Shown piece after piece: positions 262 through 12,562 of a stretch of 64,000 nt of DNA. The stretch's first letter is position 1. Each line of letters begins with the position of its first letter. Below the pieces are notes generated by a model, which did not search any database, had not been told where the DNA came from, and worked only from the letters and a program-made list of their open reading frames with translations. Position numbers and translations under genes: made by a program. The DNA comes from Leptolyngbya sp. CCY15150. Lineage in GTDB: Bacteria; Cyanobacteriota; Cyanobacteriia; RECH01. The stretch covers positions 1 through 64,000 of the forward strand of contig NZ_JACSWB010000164.1 in assembly GCF_016888135.1 (NCBI RefSeq), written 5' to 3'.

Positions 262-1557
262 TCAAATACTGAGGCGCTGATAGATATGTTCTAGGTTGCG
301 AAGATGGTGCTGAGGGTTGAAACAATCGTCAATGTCTGCCTCTGTTAGTGTTGCTGTGACACTAGGTTCTTGGCTAATCAATGCCTTGAAGTCTCCCCCT
401 TCTTTGTTCCAAGCGGCATGGGCGCAGGTTTGAACAACGGCATAGGCATCTTCTCGGCTCATGCCGGCCTCAACGAGAGCTAGCAGAACCCGCTGACTGA
501 AGACCACGCCGCCATAACAGTTGAGGTTGCGCTTCATGTTGTCTGGGTAGACCAAAAGGCTTTTGACGAGGTCAATGGTCTCGACCAACATGAAGTGGGT
601 GAGGATGCAGGCATCGGGAAGGATGACGCGTTCAACGGAGCTATGGGAGATATCGCGCTCGTGCCATAGGGCCACATTTTCGAGGGCGGAAACCGCGTAG
701 CCGCGGACAATGCGGGCCATGCCGGTCAACCGTTCTGAACGAATTGGGTTACGTTTGTGGGGCATGGCAGATGAACCCTTCTGCCCTTTCGCGAAAAATT
801 CTTCGACTTCTAGAACATCGGTGCGCTGCAGGTTGCGAACCTCGACGGCAAATCGTTCAAGGGATGCTGTGAGCAGGGCTAGGGTTTGCAGGAAGTCGGC
901 GTGGCGATCGCGTGAGATCACTTGAGTTGAGGCGGTGTCTGGCTCCAAGCCCAACATTTGACAGGCGATCGCTTCAATTTTAGGATCGATGTTGGCGTAG
1001 GTACCGACGGCACCGGAAATCTTACCGACGGCAATTTCTTTTTGGAGACGACAGAGGCGATCGCGATGGCGCAGGACTTCAGCTAGCCAGCCCGCTAGCT
1101 TGAAGCCAAAGGTAATCGGCTCTGCATGAATGCCATGGGATCGCCCGGCCATCACCGTATATCGATGCTGTTGAGCCTGGTAGCGAATGGCTTGAACGAG
1201 GTCTTCCAGCCGCTCCATCAAAACATTGACACTTTCAACGAGTTGCAGAGCTAGGGCTGTGTCTAAGACGTCAGAGCTGGTCAGCCCTAGGTGGATATAT
1301 CGTCCAGCATCGCCAACATGTTCATTCACGTTGGTTAAAAAGGCGATCATGTCGTGGCGGACTTCAGCCTCAATTTCGAGGACGCGCTGGATATCAAAGT
1401 CAGCTTTGGCCTTGATCTCCTCGACTGCCTCGACGGGGATGCGGCCTAGCTCTGCTTGGGCTTCGCAGACCGCAATCTCCACTTGTAGCCACGTCTTCAA
1501 TTTATATTCGTCAGTCCACAAGTTGCCCATCTCGGGCAAGGTATAGCGTTCAATCAA
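262..1557 (-). CDS. purB: Adenylosuccinate lyase (PurB)
   Basis: Cytoplasmic homotetrameric lyase of purine synthesis. It cleaves SAICAR to AICAR and adenylosuccinate to AMP, releasing fumarate. The fumarase/aspartase superfamily signature SSAMPHKRNP is present, as is a TSSDVLDTA substrate-loop motif. The length of about 431 residues is normal for the bacterial short type. The family N-terminus is (M)IERYTLPEMG, which places the start at a TTG at 1557; a second in-frame TTG at 1578 would add seven residues. Neither start has a clear Shine-Dalgarno sequence. It appears monocistronic, with its own terminator downstream. Confidence 0.96.
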   Translation of the reverse strand: MIERYTLPEMGNLWTDEYKLKTWLQVEIAVCEAQAELGRIPVEAVEEIKAKADFDIQRVLEIEAEVRHDMIAFLTNVNEHVGDAGRYIHLGLTSSDVLDTALALQLVESVNVLMERLEDLVQAIRYQAQQHRYTVMAGRSHGIHAEPITFGFKLAGWLAEVLRHRDRLCRLQKEIAVGKISGAVGTYANIDPKIEAIACQMLGLEPDTASTQVISRDRHADFLQTLALLTASLERFAVEVRNLQRTDVLEVEEFFAKGQKGSSAMPHKRNPIRSERLTGMARIVRGYAVSALENVALWHERDISHSSVERVILPDACILTHFMLVETIDLVKSLLVYPDNMKRNLNCYGGVVFSQRVLLALVEAGMSREDAYAVVQTCAHAAWNKEGGDFKALISQEPSVTATLTEADIDDCFNPQHHLRNLEHIYQRLSI

Positions 1558-3791: not shown

Positions 3792-6700
3792 GTGGCTGTA
3801 ATCTTGCTCTTTCCCCAGACGGTGGCTGGGACTTGCGTAAGCAATATGTATAAAAACGAACAAGGTTGTGAACATAATGGTACTCAGGCACCTTTTGTTG
3901 TCTGTGGTCAATTACGTTCATCTCCAGGATCAGATGGCCAGGCGATCGCTCCAGTATCCACGAGCTGGATCACATCGCCCCTATTAGGCTTGGAGGATTA
4001 TCCAGAACTGTCGGAGGGGCAAATGTTGGAGGCCAGTGATACCTCTGCGATTACCGCCTTGCTCGGCATTCCGTTGGCGATCGCCCACCCCCAGGATGGA
4101 CGTATTTTATATGCGACGCCTGTCTTGGCTGAGCAGTTAGCCATGCCGTTAGACGGGCTGATGGGGCAACCTTTGTCTGCCATCGTGGAAGATGTCTGCC
4201 ATTTAGAGTGGGTCGCGCAGTGTCAAGAGCAGCCCAATGATCAGCATGAGGCGATCCGTCGATTGCGGCACCAACCGGATCATGGGTCTTGTGATGATGC
4301 AGAACCAGGGGCGGGCGATCGCTGGCTAGATTTGCGCTATGCGTCAGTTATTTTTGAAGGGCAGCCTGCCCTAGGCATACTCGTATACGATATTACACCC
4401 CAGACCCAGGTCGCCCAAGAACTACGGGGGCGAGTGGCTCAACAGGAAGCGATCGCTCGCCTAGGACAGCAGGCCATTGCTGAGCCTGATCTTGTATTCT
4501 TGCTGAGTACTGCGGTGGCGGTGGTGCAGGAGACCTTAGGGGTTGACTATGTGCAGATTTTAGAACTGTTGCCCAATGGTCACACCCTTTTGCTGCGCAG
4601 TGGTGTGGGCTGGCAGGATGGCATGGTGGGGAATGCGACCATCAGCACGCGACCGGATACCCAAGCGGGCTATACGCTGCTGCACCAAAAGCCTGTGATA
4701 GTGGAAGATTTGCAGATTGAAACCCGCTTTTCGGGCGCACCCTTCCTGCACAATCACCAAGTAATGAGCGGGATGACGGTGGTGGTGCCGGGAAAGCAGG
4801 ATGGCTTTGGCGTTTTGGGGGTGCATACGCGTCTCTATCGTCGTTTCACCCAGGATGACGCTAATTTTTTGCAGGCGATCGCCAATGTGCTGGCTGCCGC
4901 CATTGCTCGCCAGCAGGTGGAAGATGATCTGCGGTTGATGAAACGAGCGATCGCGGCCAGCAGCAACGGCATTGTGATCACCGATCCGACCCAATTAAAC
5001 AACCCCGTTATTTACGCTAACCCTGCCTTTGAGCGGATCACCGGCTACAGCGTGACTGAAATCATTGGGCGCAACTGTCGGATTTTGCAGGGAGCTGATA
5101 CGGCAATAGAAGCAAAGCAGCACATTCGCCAGGCTCTACAGTCGCACCAGGACTGTCACGTCGTGCTGAAAAACTACCGTAAAGACGGCACGCCCTTTTG
5201 GAATGAGCTGTTCATTGCGCCGGTGTTTGATGCCAATGGCTATCTCACCAACTTTGTGGGTATCCAAAATGACATTACCCAGCATCGTCAGGCGCAGGAG
5301 CGCTTGCTGAATGAATACAGCTTGTTGAATGGGATTCTGCAAACGAGCGTCACGGCGGTGATTGTGTTTGATCACACTGGCGCGATCGTGTTTGCCAATG
5401 ATCGGGCGGAAGAGTTGCTGGGCTTGAGCACAACCGAACTGATGCAGCAGAAGTATGACTCGTTGACATGGACGGTTTGCAATGAGGATGGTTGTACTCT
5501 GCCTGGGGAGCAGCCGTTTCAAACCATTGTGCAATCTGGGCAGCCATTGTTTAACGTCTCCGTGATGATGACGCGGCATGATGGATCTATCCGCTACTTG
5601 TCGATGAACGGATCACCGCTACGGGATTCTGAAAGGGCGATCGCTGGGGTGGTGTTCTCCATCGCTGACATGACCGAGCAGCGGCGGATGGAGGCGGCTC
5701 TGCGCGAGAGCGAGTATCGGCTGAATAGCATCCTGGATTCCCTGGATGACGTCGTTTGGTCGTACTCGCCGACCATGGCTCTGCTCTACGTGAGCCAAGC
5801 GGTGGAGAGCGTGTATCAACGCCCGGTGGCAGCTTTTCGGGAAACATCTAGTCTGCGGCTGGAGATGGTGCATCCCTATGATCAGGGGGTGGCCCAGTCT
5901 AGTTTGCACACGTTACTAACCACAGGACAGTCGGACTGTATCTACCGGATCATGCGTCCTAGCGGGGAAACTCGCTGGATTCGCGATCGCGCCCATGCGG
6001 TTTATGACGCCCAGGGGCAGGTGCTGCGCTTTGATGGCATGAGCAGCGACATCACCGATCGTAAGCGGGCTGAGGATGATCTGCGCAAGAGTGAAGAGCG
6101 CTTCCGCTTAACCTTTGAGCGCGCTCCCATCGGTATGGCCATCACCACCCCGGCGGGACAGTTTTTGCAGGTGAACCAAGCGCTCTGCCAAGCCTTGGGC
6201 TATCGGGAAGTAGACCTGCTGAAGCTCACGGCCGATGCGGTGACGCATCCAGCGGATATTGTTGCCGATCGCTTGATGCTGCAACGGTTGCTGGATGGAG
6301 AACTGTCTGATGTGCAACTGGAAAAGCGCTACATCAGTCAAGATGGCAGCTTGGTCTATGCCATTTTGCAAGTGGCGCTCATCCGCGATCGCTATGGTGC
6401 GCCCCTCCATGTGATCCACCAGGTAATTGATATTACGGCCCGTAAACGCATGGAGGAGCAAATTCTCCACGATGCTCTCCATGATGTGTTGACAGGGTTA
6501 CCCAATCGCCTCCTTTTCCTCGATCGCCTCCAGCAGGCCATGGCCCGGGCCGAGCGAGATCCCTCCCGGCAGTTTGCCGTACTGTTTCTCGATATCGATC
6601 GCTTTAAGGTGGTGAACGATAGTTTGGGGCATCGTGTGGGCGATCAACTCCTGAAAGCGATCGCTGAACGCCTGGATCAATGTCTGCGTCCTGGTGATAC

Positions 6701-7772
6701 TATTGCCCGTCTGGGAGGGGATGAATTCGCCCTGCTCCTCGACAATATTCACGGCGCAACCGGCGCGGCCCACGTGGCTGAACGTATTTATCAATTGCTG
6801 CAGTTACCCTTTCATCTAAATGGCTATGATGTCTTTGCCACCGTGAGTATTGGCATCACCCTCAACATGCAGGGCTATACTGAGCCAGAACATTTGCTGC
6901 GCGATGCCGATACAGCCATGTATCGAGCCAAGGAGAATGGCCGAGGGCATTATCTGCTGTTTCAGACGGATATGTATGATCAGGCCGTTGCTGTTTTGGA
7001 ACTAGAGAGCGACCTGCGTCGAGCGATTGAGCGGCAGGAACTGCGGGTCTACTATCAGCCAATTGTTTCCTTAGTGACAGGAAAACTATCGGGGTTTGAG
7101 GCCCTGGTGCGTTGGCAGCATCCTAAGCGTGGCTTGGTCTCTCCGGTTGACTTCATCCCGATCGCTGAAGAAACGGGATTAATCATTCCCATTGGCCTGT
7201 GGGTGTTGCAAGAAGCCTGTCAACAGCTCCAGGCTTGGCGATCGACCCTGCCCCAAGCCGATCGCTTGATTATGAGCGTCAATCTATCACCCCGGCAATT
7301 GTCGAGCCCAACTCTGGTGGACGATATTCAGCAGGTCATTGAACAAGTGGGCTTGCCTCCCCACTGTCTCAAACTGGAAATAACCGAAAGCGGCATTATG
7401 GACAATGCTACCCATGCGGCGGCGCTGCTTGAGAGCTTGACCCAGCGCGGTATTCAGTTATGCATTGATGACTTTGGGACGGGGTATTCATCCCTGAGCC
7501 GTCTTCATGCGTTTCCCATTGGTATGCTCAAGATCGATCGATCCTTTGTCAGCGAGATTATGCATGATGAAGGGAAAGCCAAGATTGTGCAAGCTATTGT
7601 AGCCTTGGCCCATGCCCTGGGAATGGGGGTGATTGGGGAAGGCATTGAAACCCCTGAACAGCTTGCCGCCTTGCGATCGCTCCATTGTGATTCGGGGCAA
7701 GGCTATTGGTTTGGTAAGCCTGTATCTGCCAACGACACGGTGGAATTGCTCAAGAAGGGACAAGTGTGGTGA
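3792..7772 (+). CDS. GAF/LOV/PAS sensor with GGDEF and EAL domains
   Basis: A 1326-residue c-di-GMP enzyme without obvious membrane segments. Order: PAS-like (about 85-200), GAF (about 225-370), LOV (about 385-495), three further PAS/PAC units (about 505-885), GGDEF (about 890-1060), EAL (about 1070-1320). The fourth unit has the LOV signature GRNCRILQG, with Cys429 in the place of the flavin-adduct cysteine, so blue-light sensing through FMN is likely. GGDEF is intact (GGDEF at 975-979), with an RxxD inhibitory site (RPGD, 966-969). EAL is also intact (EAL at 1103-1105; DDFGTGYS near 1226), so both cyclase and phosphodiesterase activity are possible. The start is uncertain: GTG 3792, ATG 3846, or ATG 4023, which alone follows a good GGAGG. 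It converges with the WD40 gene, 3 nt apart. Confidence 0.92.
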   Translation: MAVILLFPQTVAGTCVSNMYKNEQGCEHNGTQAPFVVCGQLRSSPGSDGQAIAPVSTSWITSPLLGLEDYPELSEGQMLEASDTSAITALLGIPLAIAHPQDGRILYATPVLAEQLAMPLDGLMGQPLSAIVEDVCHLEWVAQCQEQPNDQHEAIRRLRHQPDHGSCDDAEPGAGDRWLDLRYASVIFEGQPALGILVYDITPQTQVAQELRGRVAQQEAIARLGQQAIAEPDLVFLLSTAVAVVQETLGVDYVQILELLPNGHTLLLRSGVGWQDGMVGNATISTRPDTQAGYTLLHQKPVIVEDLQIETRFSGAPFLHNHQVMSGMTVVVPGKQDGFGVLGVHTRLYRRFTQDDANFLQAIANVLAAAIARQQVEDDLRLMKRAIAASSNGIVITDPTQLNNPVIYANPAFERITGYSVTEIIGRNCRILQGADTAIEAKQHIRQALQSHQDCHVVLKNYRKDGTPFWNELFIAPVFDANGYLTNFVGIQNDITQHRQAQERLLNEYSLLNGILQTSVTAVIVFDHTGAIVFANDRAEELLGLSTTELMQQKYDSLTWTVCNEDGCTLPGEQPFQTIVQSGQPLFNVSVMMTRHDGSIRYLSMNGSPLRDSERAIAGVVFSIADMTEQRRMEAALRESEYRLNSILDSLDDVVWSYSPTMALLYVSQAVESVYQRPVAAFRETSSLRLEMVHPYDQGVAQSSLHTLLTTGQSDCIYRIMRPSGETRWIRDRAHAVYDAQGQVLRFDGMSSDITDRKRAEDDLRKSEERFRLTFERAPIGMAITTPAGQFLQVNQALCQALGYREVDLLKLTADAVTHPADIVADRLMLQRLLDGELSDVQLEKRYISQDGSLVYAILQVALIRDRYGAPLHVIHQVIDITARKRMEEQILHDALHDVLTGLPNRLLFLDRLQQAMARAERDPSRQFAVLFLDIDRFKVVNDSLGHRVGDQLLKAIAERLDQCLRPGDTIARLGGDEFALLLDNIHGATGAAHVAERIYQLLQLPFHLNGYDVFATVSIGITLNMQGYTEPEHLLRDADTAMYRAKENGRGHYLLFQTDMYDQAVAVLELESDLRRAIERQELRVYYQPIVSLVTGKLSGFEALVRWQHPKRGLVSPVDFIPIAEETGLIIPIGLWVLQEACQQLQAWRSTLPQADRLIMSVNLSPRQLSSPTLVDDIQQVIEQVGLPPHCLKLEITESGIMDNATHAAALLESLTQRGIQLCIDDFGTGYSSLSRLHAFPIGMLKIDRSFVSEIMHDEGKAKIVQAIVALAHALGMGVIGEGIETPEQLAALRSLHCDSGQGYWFGKPVSANDTVELLKKGQVW

Positions 7773-7775
7773 ACC

Positions 7776-10700
7776 TTAGGATCTGCAGAGTTGGCGATCG
7801 CTCTCGCTGAGGTTGGCATGGCGTAGATAGTCTTGCAGCCAGCTACAGCCAATGGTGGTCAATTCATCAAGATTACCCAGCACGTTGGTATGCCAAAGGA
7901 GGACGGTGCGATCGTCACTGGCGGAGGCTAGGAGGCGACCATCGGGGCTAAAGCTGAGGTTATTAACGGTTCCCGTATGACCTGGCAGGGTGGTAATCAG
8001 CGTGCCGTCCAGCCGCCAGAGCTTCATGGTGCGATCGGCGCTAGCGGTGGCGATGCCGTCGGGAAAAAACTGCACTGCCACCACGCCATCACTATGCCCC
8101 TCCAGTGTGGCTAAGCGGTTGCCCTGTCGATCCCACAAGCCGACAGTATTGTCGTAGCTGGCGGTGGCAATGGTTTCCCCATCGGGGCTAAAGACAGCAT
8201 CAAAGATCCAGCCGCTATGGCCCTTGAGGGTTTGAAGTACCTGCCCGTCTAGGCTCCAGAGTTTGGCCGTCGTGTCCCAGCTCCCGGTGAGCAATGTTTG
8301 ACTGTCGGGACTGAATTGCACCGTCAAGACGCCGTTGCTGTGGGCTTCGATTTGCCGAACCAGACGACCATCCCTGGTCCACAGCCGGACGGTTTGGTCA
8401 TCGCTAGCGGTAGCCATCCAGCGGCCATCAGGGCTGAAGACAACCGCATACACCGGTGCGCGATGCCCTCGCAGGGTATGGAGCAAGGCTCCGGTCTGCG
8501 GGTTCCAAAGCTTGACCGTCCAGTCGGAACTGCTGGAGGCTAGCTGTTGACCATCGGGACTAAAACTCAGATCCCAGATCGACGAATCATGGGCCGTGAT
8601 CGATCGTTCTTCCGATCCCTCAAGGTTCCAGATCTTGATGGTGGAGTCTGCGCCGGTGGTGGCTAGGTGTTGGCCATTTGGGGAAAACTCGACGTCGTAG
8701 ACCTGCCCTGTATGGGATTGCAGGGGGGTGAGCCATGGGCGATCGAGGCTCCAGATTTTGATGCTGCGATCGCCCCCCGCCGAGGCCAACCAAGCACCAT
8801 CGGGCGTAAAGCTGAGGCTACGGACTTGGGAGGTGTGACCGCCGAGGGTGGAGACTAAACTGCCATCCAGCCGCCAAAATTTGATGGTTTTATCGGCGCT
8901 GGCCGTGGCAAATTGGCGACCATCGGCGGAAAATCGCACTTGATGGATCAGGTCATCATGGGCCTGCACCGTGCGCACCGGGGTGCCGTCGGTGCGCCAT
9001 AGTCGTACCGTGTGATCCCAACTGCCTGAGATTAAGAATTGACCGTCGGGACTAAAGTCGATGGCATAGACCCGAGCGGTATGTCCTTGGAGTTCCCGGA
9101 GGGGACTGCCATCCGATCGCCACAGCCGCACGGTTTGGTCATCGCTGGCCGAGGCAATGAGCTGCCCATCGGGGCTAAACCGTACATCGCGCACGGCGGC
9201 ATTATGCTGGGTGAGGGTGGTGATTGGGGTGCCGTCGAGCTGCCATAGCCTTACGGTGCTATCGTCACTGGCGGAGACCAGGCGTTGACCGTTGGGGCTA
9301 AAGCGGACATGGTTAACGGCGGCGCTATGGCCTGTGAGGGTGGTGACTAAGGTGCCATCCGATCGCCAAAGTTTAATCGTTTGGTCTTGACCCGCCGAGG
9401 CAATCAGCTGACCATCCGGGGAAAAGGAAACCCCTAACACCGGCTGGGTATGGCCCTCTAGGCTATGCAGTAGGGTGCCGTCGGGTCGCCATAATCGCAC
9501 GGTGCGATCGCCACTGGCGGAGGCAATAATCTGTCCATCTGGGCTATAGCTCACGTCCCAGACAATGCCGTTATGCTGCTCTAGCTGATTGCGTTCTCGT
9601 ACCCAGAAGATGGCTTGCTGGAGAGCTGTGAGCACCTGGGCCTGTAGCTCAGCAGGAGGACTGCTGTAGGCTGCTTGAAGCTGGTAACCGGCTCGCATAG
9701 ACTGCAGCAAGGCATCAAAACGCTGATTGCCATCAAAGAGGGCTTCAGAGGCTTGGGTGAGGGCACGAATCCGCTCGTGGTCAGCTTGATCCCGCAGGTT
9801 TTCGGCCAATAAGCGATTGTGTTCAGCCTGTTGGTAGAGCAAGAAGCTGCTGCCTCCCAGACCTACAGCGGCGATCGACACGAGGGTGATAATGCCTAGC
9901 CAACGGCGTTGACGCTTGAGGGTAACGTTTTGCTGATGTAGTGCTGCGGCCTGTCGGGCGGCTTCAGCTTGGCCAGACGCCAGAATATATTCATGGTGGA
10001 GGGGAGCTGGGGCTGGCACTTTGCTGCCGCTGCTGCCGTACCACTGTTTTGCATCATGGAGATCGCTGCCCCGCAGGAGAAAACTTTCATCCTGCTGGCG
10101 ATCGCTCCATTCCTTGGCTCGAATGAGAATGCGCGTATGCATGCGCACATAGTCGAGGTCGGTGTCTAGCGCGGTGACCAGTTTGCGAATACTTTCCCCA
10201 AACTGATCGACATCGCGGACAAAGATCCAGTTGAGCCGGGCGAGTTCGGGATGCACGTCACTGGGATTAACGTCCTCACAAACAACCGGGATCATCCGCT
10301 TGTTGTGCAGCAGGGCATGATTGATTTCCTGGGTGCAGATCGGAGACTGAACCGAAGCTGGACTGAGCACAAACACGAAGGTATCCGCAAGTTCAATACC
10401 TAGTTCAATTTCTTTCCACCAGTCCGCCGCCGAGGGAATGCTCTCCCAATCCACCCAAATTTCACGACCGTGCTTCTTTAGGGCATCATAAAGCCGCTGC
10501 ACAAAGGGTTTATTGCGGCGTGAATAGGAAATAAAAATATTGGCTGTAGGACTGTTGTGATCCAGAATATCCCAAATGTTTTTGGGCATCTGGCGACCGC
10601 TCTTGGCTGCAAGCTGAACACGATAGCGAGGTGGATGGCCGGCTACAACCTGCACATAGCTTTGACGAATCAGTTCCTCTAGAATCGGCTGAAGGGCGAT

Positions 10701-10877
10701 CGCCTCTTGCTGGAAATGCTCTGCAAGGTCGGCCATCGTTACTTCATCGCGACGGAGCATCCAGTTGACAATGCGCTGTTGATCCTTGGGCAGAATCAGC
10801 AAATCTGCCACATTGAGACCGCGTTTTCGGCGTGAACGGCCGACGGGCTGGAAGTCTCCAAGGGAATTGGAGGTCAT
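7776..10877 (-). CDS. TIR domain, transmembrane helix and 14 WD40 repeats
   Basis: 1033 residues. A winged-helix-like segment (about 25-90) precedes a TIR domain (about 112-240, starting NIFISYSRRNK). A single hydrophobic helix (about 326-347) and a charged coiled-coil stretch follow. Fourteen WD40 repeats (about 435-1000) are enough for two seven-bladed propellers. The cyanobacterial WD40 tail motif (CSWLQDYL) ends the protein. In the TIR domain, CTQEI places Glu194 where NAD-cleaving TIR domains carry their catalytic Glu. No NTPase (STAND/NACHT) domain lies between TIR and the WD40 part, unlike many bacterial receptors of this kind. AGGGAG lies upstream of the ATG. A role in signalling or NAD-depletion immunity is inference. 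Confidence 0.9.
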   Translation of the reverse strand: MTSNSLGDFQPVGRSRRKRGLNVADLLILPKDQQRIVNWMLRRDEVTMADLAEHFQQEAIALQPILEELIRQSYVQVVAGHPPRYRVQLAAKSGRQMPKNIWDILDHNSPTANIFISYSRRNKPFVQRLYDALKKHGREIWVDWESIPSAADWWKEIELGIELADTFVFVLSPASVQSPICTQEINHALLHNKRMIPVVCEDVNPSDVHPELARLNWIFVRDVDQFGESIRKLVTALDTDLDYVRMHTRILIRAKEWSDRQQDESFLLRGSDLHDAKQWYGSSGSKVPAPAPLHHEYILASGQAEAARQAAALHQQNVTLKRQRRWLGIITLVSIAAVGLGGSSFLLYQQAEHNRLLAENLRDQADHERIRALTQASEALFDGNQRFDALLQSMRAGYQLQAAYSSPPAELQAQVLTALQQAIFWVRERNQLEQHNGIVWDVSYSPDGQIIASASGDRTVRLWRPDGTLLHSLEGHTQPVLGVSFSPDGQLIASAGQDQTIKLWRSDGTLVTTLTGHSAAVNHVRFSPNGQRLVSASDDSTVRLWQLDGTPITTLTQHNAAVRDVRFSPDGQLIASASDDQTVRLWRSDGSPLRELQGHTARVYAIDFSPDGQFLISGSWDHTVRLWRTDGTPVRTVQAHDDLIHQVRFSADGRQFATASADKTIKFWRLDGSLVSTLGGHTSQVRSLSFTPDGAWLASAGGDRSIKIWSLDRPWLTPLQSHTGQVYDVEFSPNGQHLATTGADSTIKIWNLEGSEERSITAHDSSIWDLSFSPDGQQLASSSSDWTVKLWNPQTGALLHTLRGHRAPVYAVVFSPDGRWMATASDDQTVRLWTRDGRLVRQIEAHSNGVLTVQFSPDSQTLLTGSWDTTAKLWSLDGQVLQTLKGHSGWIFDAVFSPDGETIATASYDNTVGLWDRQGNRLATLEGHSDGVVAVQFFPDGIATASADRTMKLWRLDGTLITTLPGHTGTVNNLSFSPDGRLLASASDDRTVLLWHTNVLGNLDELTTIGCSWLQDYLRHANLSESDRQLCRS

Positions 10878-11184
10878 GGTGTAGAAACTCCCTGATGAAC
10901 AGCATGGATGACGATGGTGCCTCAGATAGCGGTCGGTCGGCTGGTTGAGGCATTGATGCTGGTCTATGGATAGGCTGACCTGGAGGTAGATACTCTAGTT
11001 AAACAGTAGTTTAGCGGTTAACTCTGATACGGGGATGACTAGATAGATGATTCGATCAAAGGGGAGCGATCGCGTTCATAAGAAACCCCCTAGACCTGAG
11101 TCTAGAGGGTGGTTTTCTAAGCTGCTGATGCTGACCGCATGGGCAAGTGTTGATAATAGATTGAGCTGGTTGTTTGTATAAGGT
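10878..11184. other. Intergenic region between the TIR-WD40 and DUF4278 genes
   Basis: About 307 nt holding the upstream region of the WD40 gene and the terminator of the DUF4278 gene (11083-11117). One HIP1 site is present. I found no coding sequence and no clear -35/-10 pair. Confidence 0.6.
11083..11117 (-). terminator. Rho-independent terminator behind the DUF4278 gene
   Basis: The arms ACCCCCTAGAC and GTCTAGAGGGT enclose the loop CTGA. Read on the minus strand the stem is followed by TTTCTT. It lies about 70 nt after the DUF4278 stop. Confidence 0.75.
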
Positions 11185-11367
11185 TTAGCGATGGCCTAAG
11201 TAGTTAATGCCACGGTAGGTTAACACTTGGACACTATCTGGAACATGGACGGTCGCACCGTCGAAGGATAAGGCTGCGCCTCGATAGGTGCCCTTCTGGG
11301 ATGGTTGCACACCTAGCTGGCTGGAAGACTGGGGCTTGTATTCAATACCGCGATATGCATATTTCAT
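11185..11367 (-). CDS. DUF4278 domain-containing small protein
   Basis: A 60-residue protein of the cyanobacterial DUF4278 family, recognised by the motif pattern MKYAYRGIEY at the N-terminus and LTYRGINY near the C-terminus. A third YRG (TYRGAAL) lies in the middle, which suggests internal duplication. AAGGA sits 9 nt before the ATG. No signal peptide or membrane helix is seen. The function of the family is unknown. A perfect 7-bp hairpin (11413-11432) lies about 45 nt upstream in the probable leader, and a terminator follows the gene. It is codirectional with the tandem-repeat gene 264 nt upstream. Confidence 0.8.
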   Translation of the reverse strand: MKYAYRGIEYKPQSSSQLGVQPSQKGTYRGAALSFDGATVHVPDSVQVLTYRGINYLGHR

Positions 11368-11631: not shown

Positions 11632-12249
11632 TCAAGCGTTGATGGGAAAAGAGGTAGGATTCGGTAGCTCGGAATCACGGTGGCGGGAAGCCGTCACTTG
11701 AGGGCCACCAAAGGTCGTAGGATTCGGTAGCTCAGAATCGCGGTGGCGAGTAGCGATGGCTTGAGGGCCACCGAAGGTCGTAGGATTCGGTAGCTCAGAA
11801 TCGCGGTGACGAGTGGCGATCGCCTGAGGGCCGCCGAAGGTCGTAGGATTCGGTAGCTCGGAATCGCGGTGGCGAGTAGCGATCGCTTGAGGGCCACCAA
11901 AGGTCGTAGGATTCGGTAGCTCAGAATCGCGGTGACGAGTAGCGATGGCTTGAGGGCCGCCGAAGGTCGTAGGGTTAGGTAGCTCGGAATCGCGGTGACG
12001 AGAAGCGATCGCCTGAGGGCCGCCGAAGGTTGTAGGATTCGGTAGCTCAGAATCACGGTGACGAGAAGCGATGGCTTGAGGGCCACCGAAGGTTGTAGGA
12101 TTCGGTAGCTCAGAATCGCGGTGGCGAGTAGCGAGTTCTGTTTGAGTGGCTGCGGCAATGCGGTTAATGGCGGTGGGGGTGGCGATCGCTTCCAGGGCAA
12201 TGGCGGAGAGAGCGAGGAGAGACAGACCGGAAATGATAGTGCGTTTCAT
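11632..12249 (-). CDS. Exported tandem-repeat protein, eight 21-residue repeats
   Basis: I do not recognise a family. The 205-residue product begins with a typical signal peptide: MKR, a hydrophobic core, and a likely cleavage after AIA near residue 23. A short linker follows, then from residue 42 to the end only repeats: seven full units and one shortened. Each full unit starts RHRDSELPNP and ends TTFGGPQAIA plus S or T. The last unit ends in TSFPINA. Repeats 1 and 2 differ at five bases, all silent. The mature protein has no Cys, one Ile per full unit and much Pro, so it is probably unfolded or only periodically structured. AGGAG lies 6 nt before the ATG, a strong start. It could be a structural or surface protein, or a precursor cut into identical peptides; both are guesses. 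Confidence 0.8.
   Translation of the reverse strand: MKRTIISGLSLLALSAIALEAIATPTAINRIAAATQTELATRHRDSELPNPTTFGGPQAIASRHRDSELPNPTTFGGPQAIASRHRDSELPNPTTFGGPQAIATRHRDSELPNPTTFGGPQAIATRHRDSELPNPTTFGGPQAIATRHRDSELPNPTTFGGPQAIATRHRDSELPNPTTFGGPQVTASRHRDSELPNPTSFPINA
11635..12126 (-). repeat. 63-bp tandem repeat array, 8 copies
   Basis: Units on the minus strand: 12126-12064, 12063-12001, 12000-11938, 11937-11875, 11874-11812, 11811-11749, 11748-11686 and a shortened 11685-11635. The period is exactly 63 bp, so the reading frame is kept. Differences fall mainly at third codon positions (CGC/CGT, GGT/GGC, CAA/CAG, GCC/GCG, AAT/AAC). In some copies these changes create or remove a HIP1 octamer around the GCG-ATC-GCT codons. 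Confidence 0.95.
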
Positions 12250-12562
12250 GATGAACTCCTAAAGTATTGAGTGGGTGAGGTGTTTTCCCTCAACACTTAT
12301 GAGTATGGGGGCTGGGGCTGAAGCCTATCTGAAGTGTGGTTAAGAGTTTCTCCCAGGTTCTTCTCAGCAAATTCCTAGGTAACCAGAGTTCGGGATAAGC
12401 TGAAAACCTTATTCTTCCGTGAGCTAAGATCTTGATTCTTTCGTCCAACAAGCTGAAAAACCCTAACCTGAACTGACGCTATACCAACAAAACCCGCGTA
12501 GGCGGGTTCATAGGGTTCGGCGAGTTGGCATGCAAGATTGACGGAGGTCAGCAGCTTCTTCG
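12250..12562. other. Intergenic region between the repeat-protein gene and era
   Basis: About 313 nt containing the upstream region of the repeat-protein gene and the era terminator (12486-12508). The repeat-protein SD (AGGAG) is at its left end. No further gene is seen. Confidence 0.6.
12486..12508 (-). terminator. Rho-independent terminator behind era
   Basis: AACCCGC and GCGGGTT (12491-12497 and 12502-12508) pair around GTAG and are followed on the minus strand by TTGTTGG, reading GGGTTTTGTTGG in full. It lies about 55 nt after the era stop. Confidence 0.7.

Follow-up and report, generated by a model that had tools for sequence, protein, structure and literature searches.

Purifying selection on a short repeated motif in a predicted exported protein of Leptolyngbya sp. 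CCY15150, a possible multi-copy peptide precursor

The stretch of Leptolyngbya sp. CCY15150 DNA analysed here (64,000 nucleotides; the window) carries at 11632-12249, on the reverse strand, an open reading frame of 205 residues, in which a signal peptide is joined by a short linker to eight tandem units. It is strongly supported that this array gene is protein-coding and under purifying selection at the peptide level, with the first 11 residues of each unit held most strictly. The core statement best supported by the sequence is that its product would be an exported protein whose function lies in a short, multiply repeated motif. Our best reading, to which we give somewhat less than even odds, is a Sec-exported precursor that carries one peptide in many copies.

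On re-examination, the coordinates, strand and translation in the preliminary description of this locus all match. Residues 1-24 (MKRTIISGLSLLALSAIALEAIA, with T as the next residue; 12178-12249, reverse strand) are predicted to form a Sec-type signal peptide by inspection and by hydropathy, which is about 2 across residues 4-22. A Shine-Dalgarno-like AGGAGTT lies about 6 nt 5′ of the ATG, and the start is conserved in a paralog described below. The linker (residues 25-41, PTAINRIAAATQTELAT; 12127-12177) leads into the array proper (residues 42-205 plus stop; 11632-12126), both on the same strand. The eight copies reported earlier consist of seven full 63-bp units, RHRDSELPNPTTFGGPQ(AIA/VTA)(S/T), followed by a shortened eighth, RHRDSELPNPTSFPINA. 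The full unit peptide, RHRDSELPNPTTFGGPQAIA(S/T), is 21 residues long, with the VTA variant present in one unit. Tandem Repeats Finder reports a single array at 11654-12134 (period 63, 7.6 copies, score 745); setting aside a period-189 reading of the same segment, the runner-up in the window scores 68. The protein is rich in Pro, Gly and Thr, has a pI of about 7 and, as was noted earlier, contains no Cys. R-H-R supplies the sole basic residues of each unit, and the mature protein is without any dibasic pair.

The case for selection on the peptide comes from 15 full units, taken from the array gene of this genome (G000) and its ortholog in a sister species (G001). By the method of Nei and Gojobori, the G000 units differ among themselves with dS 0.39 and dN 0.029 (ratio 0.07), those of G001 with dS 0.80 and dN 0.043, and units compared between the two species give a ratio of 0.05; the whole-unit range is thus 0.05-0.07, with small replacement counts taken from no more than two complete arrays. 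Replacements are far outnumbered by silent changes, in keeping with the earlier remark that differences between repeats are largely silent, and the five base differences between units 1 and 2 are indeed silent in five of five cases. The few replacements within the G000 gene are S/T at residue 21, AIA to VTA in unit 7, and those at the end of unit 8. Residues 1-11 (RHRDSELPNPT) show no replacement in any of the 15 units, while silent variants occur at 11 of 11 codons; a minimum of 12 changes, all silent, gives a neutral P of 1e-7 to 2e-6 across transition/transversion weights of 1-8, a value that is indicative since changes are taken as independent. Residues 12-21 are looser (ratio 0.10-0.19), with residues 12-20 still fairly conserved. 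The selection proposed earlier is therefore upheld, and its focus is sharpened to the first 11 residues.

The units are also old. Four flanking genes (era, an ABC ATPase gene, the WD40 gene and pgi) show silent divergence of 0.10-0.29 between species, which is exceeded by the between-unit dS inside one genome (0.39-0.80). Hence the units predate the separation of the two species and are not freshly slipped. A DNA-level tandem repeat with an incidental reading frame, for example through slippage of a segment containing the HIP1-type sequence GCGATCGC, would account for the presence of that sequence at the AIA codons of some units and for an array that was clearly built by tandem duplication. 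It is contradicted by the substitution pattern, and we consider it very improbable: third positions make up 18 of the 24 variable sites, the core changes are all silent, the Shine-Dalgarno sequence is good, and a separate paralog shares the motif and resembles the array gene in its signal peptide. Furthermore, every one of the other five frames is interrupted by a stop in one or more units, and in four of them the replacement rate is above the silent rate, so that the annotated frame is the only one that combines open units with a low replacement ratio. An invariant core with silent variation, in the sole open frame that shows such a pattern, points to a real gene selected at the level of its peptide.

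Unit number varies between species, with 8 in G000, 9 in G001 and at least 2 in a third genome, G002, where the array runs to a contig end; all three assemblies are draft, and these counts carry some doubt. The array nevertheless turns over, and its last unit is identical in DNA. The preliminary description had named hits in this one strain only, with many frameshifted or nonsense copies, as a finding that would speak against it; three genomes carry the array, but none of them lies beyond a single genus. Neither the array gene nor the paralog was found in the single genome that represents a different genus within the family, and among 390 genomes of the class both an exact-motif DNA pattern and a profile search gave nothing convincing beyond the genus. 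Four weaker matches were rejected: a motif-pattern match in G345 with a TGA stop among the matched codons (chance), a profile match in G213 to the signal-peptide part only (E=0.002), a match in G026 that contains 4 stops (E=1.9e-4), and a chance match on contig C172 of G000 (E=4.8) in which RHRDS sits in a different context. Searches of plasmids, IMG/VR and PDB gave no match. The statement that no named family is known with this unit also stands, as no Pfam, NCBIfam or PDB family reaches a curated cut-off or significant E-value; the best matches, DUF374 and carphisopro, span just 11 residues and fall short of the cut-off. The motif was also sought in the literature, where no report turned up. 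As far as the searched collections reach, the family is restricted to the genus.

Within G000, the motif is carried only by the array gene and one paralog (contig C214, locus L009 7878-8273, reverse strand), which has an ortholog in G001 and is thus present in two of the three species with the array gene. Its signal peptide is closely similar (MKRMIIAGFSLLALTAVGIEAIATP), and its motifs RHRDSSLPNPHNF, RHRDSDQPNPHSF and RHRDSDQPNPVFG begin at residues 35, 75 and 115. RHRDSxxPNP is common to both genes. The 21-residue unit is not retained: motif spacing is 40 and 40 residues (20 beyond the stop), the spacers are unlike those of the array, and the residues before the motifs (TVAT, PAAT/PATT, SPST) do not keep the A-x-A junction. 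One spacer half, EERTSELSSPYRAGVEPAA, aligns to the array unit better than 494 of 500 shuffles; the other half gives no such signal in the same shuffle test. This suggests that the paralog may also have begun as an array of units of about 20 residues, some of which later decayed. In both species, an in-frame TAG follows the third motif, directly succeeded by an ATG, and the stretch past it (L009 ~7765-7877, reverse strand; L075 ~770-885, forward strand) holds two more motif remnants. The constraint ratio is 0.58 past the TAG versus 0.21 before it, from few changes. Continued coding past the stop is weakly supported; the relaxed constraint suggests decay, and reinitiation at the ATG is possible.

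That the paralog keeps the motif among unlike spacers argues for the short motif as the functional part and against a regular solenoid. A regular periodic fold with turns of 21 residues, such as a beta-solenoid, is improbable. Short strands at TTF and QAIAS do appear in most units in both AlphaFold2 runs; against this, mean pLDDT is 52 and 48 with no residue above 70, each unit has few hydrophobic residues, and in the paralog neither period nor spacer is conserved. The preliminary description had left the choice between a periodic surface or matrix protein and a polyprotein precursor of short peptides. Of these, a strictly periodic structural role is disfavoured by the paralog's spacing and spacers, and we keep a matrix and a precursor reading side by side.

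According to the precursor reading, the array gene would give a Sec-exported and probably flexible protein in which RHRDSELPNPT, in eight copies, is the working part. After export, the array would be cut between units, either at the uniform junctions between A/V-x-A and S/T or at the R-x-R cluster, freeing a single kind of peptide, about 19-21 residues long, in many copies; this peptide may act as a signal or effector inside this genus. An export-type N-terminus, tandem units, purifying selection on the core, a copy number that changes from species to species and a paralog that keeps the motif among otherwise different spacers are observed; we infer that the array is cleaved, that peptide is released and that a receptor or target exists. 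Computed from the sequence, trypsin-like cutting at the RHR clusters would yield near-uniform products of 19 residues, and of the two fitting cleavage places, the A/V-x-A junction before S/T is absent from the paralog while R-x-R is retained there within the motif. The precursor reading is favoured by export, by a restricted lineage, by a copy number that varies and by conservation centred on short segments with variable spacers between them, as in tandem propeptides. Counting against it are the absence of the A-x-A junction from the paralog, conservation of residues 12-20 beyond what a mere spacer would need, and the surroundings of both genes, in which no recognisable receptor or dedicated protease adjoins the array gene or the paralog.

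Nearly all of the same facts are explained by an unprocessed exported repeat protein, in which each RHRDSELPNPT would serve as a binding motif and the flexible array would form a multivalent coat or linker within the cell wall, the sheath or the matrix of the mat. We rate this possibility almost equal to the precursor. It fits a signal peptide that comes with no obvious second processing system, the composition and pI given above, low-confidence structure predictions that are compatible with disorder, and a unit number that differs between species; multivalent binding would also tolerate the unlike spacers of the paralog. However, 11 consecutive residues are wholly fixed across units and species, and disordered matrix repeats are usually less strict than this. 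Furthermore, no cell-wall anchor or domain was found with Pfam or NCBIfam.

The array gene sits between an Era-like GTPase gene (era, named by reading; one match per genome in 12 genomes) and a gene for a 60-residue DUF4278 protein (PF14105, E=2e-12) downstream on the same strand at 11185-11367, which may share the array transcript. Past the latter lies a terminator-like stem (11085-11110, reverse strand), in a region whose stem count is not above that of shuffles. Comparison of the intergenic region after era (12250-12562, reverse strand) shows about 100 nt, 12310-12400, to be nearly invariant in the sister species. ACTCTTAAC stands at -98 of the array gene, and the same 9-mer is found at -113 of the paralog; since chance alone would give two upstream regions a 9-mer in common with a probability of roughly 5-10%, it is possibly, on weak evidence, a candidate site for common regulation of the two genes. 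Rfam gives no match in the array region, and inspection of the DNA downstream of era in other genera revealed no small repeat protein of this kind. In G002, the sequence past era (contig C83, L063 1-268) differs from that of G000 and contains a CCCCTTCTCCC-type repeat, and adjacency of array and era is unproven there since the array is on a different contig, at its end (end of L076).

The neighbours of the array and paralog loci are unrelated, with no gene recognised in common. A 1033-residue protein encoded two genes from the array (7776-10877, reverse strand) has 14 WD40 repeats assigned by Pfam, preceded by a TIR-like region (about residues 113-207) that stays below curated cut-offs; this defence-like architecture has orthologs in G001 and G002. 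Convergent with its gene is one for a 1326-residue protein of PAS/GAF-GGDEF-EAL type, by reading (3792-7772, forward strand). Beside the paralog, L009 8456-14363 encodes a Trypco1 protein and, divergently, caspase-VMAP-C, AAA ATPase and SAV_2336-FGE-sulfatase genes, a putative VMAP-type conflict cluster. The G001 paralog is near a contig end, and its neighbourhood is comparable only as far as the Trypco1 gene.

Known precursors offer partial parallels. Some propeptides of Bacillota are reported to carry tandem pheromone copies, up to 8, with the mature peptides as the conserved part (PMC11343458). Like these Phr propeptides of Rap-Phr systems, the array protein has a Sec-type signal, several copies of a short peptide and conservation centred on that peptide; unlike them, it is cyanobacterial, unrelated in sequence and filled over nearly its whole mature length by 21-residue units (PMC11343458). 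No TPR/Rap-type receptor of the Rap-Phr/RRNPPA kind adjoins it, the neighbours being the Era-like GTPase, DUF4278 and TIR-WD40 genes. Fungal KEX2-processed repeat proteins (KEPs) and alpha-factor precursors are secreted as well, start with a signal peptide and contain three or more repeats that are nearly identical and comparable in size to the units here; the array protein differs in being bacterial and without Kex2 (PMC6339444). A signal peptide (by hydropathy and inspection) with at least three repeated motifs, as used to recognise KEPs, is present, but no KR, RR or KK site lies between the repeats, where the translation offers R-H-R only. PatX of filamentous cyanobacteria is also a small Sec-exported precursor of a short peptide, and PatX/PatP involves maturation by an extracytosolic peptidase; PatX carries an HRGTGR peptide, whereas the array protein repeats its own peptide many times (PMC12756182), and RGSGR/RGTGR-type motifs are absent from its translation. 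Multicore RiPP precursors have modification enzymes alongside and a leader peptide rather than a Sec signal; by reading, no obvious maturase was seen among the ORFs at 5-20 kb. The array thus lacks defining features of both the Phr and alpha-factor families and would resemble them in its manner of working. Put in full, the proposal is of a genus-specific RHRDSxxPNP peptide family, Sec-exported as multi-copy signal precursors and encoded by the tandem-array gene together with its diverged paralog. Processing would take place outside the cytoplasm in a way akin to that of tandem Phr and alpha-factor precursors, with unrelated sequence and protease; taken as a whole, the proposal is rather unlikely.

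Under either the precursor or the matrix reading, the two genes make up a small orphan family for which standard annotation has no name. If the array protein is a matrix protein, it would illustrate cleanly how a short motif can stay fixed across many copies as the underlying DNA diverges. If it is a precursor, cyanobacteria would gain a repeated-propeptide signal, unlike their known exported peptide PatX, which is built differently, and its predicted products, such as SRHRDSELPNPTTFGGPQAIA or DSELPNPTTFGGPQAIATR, could be searched for in culture or mat extracts.
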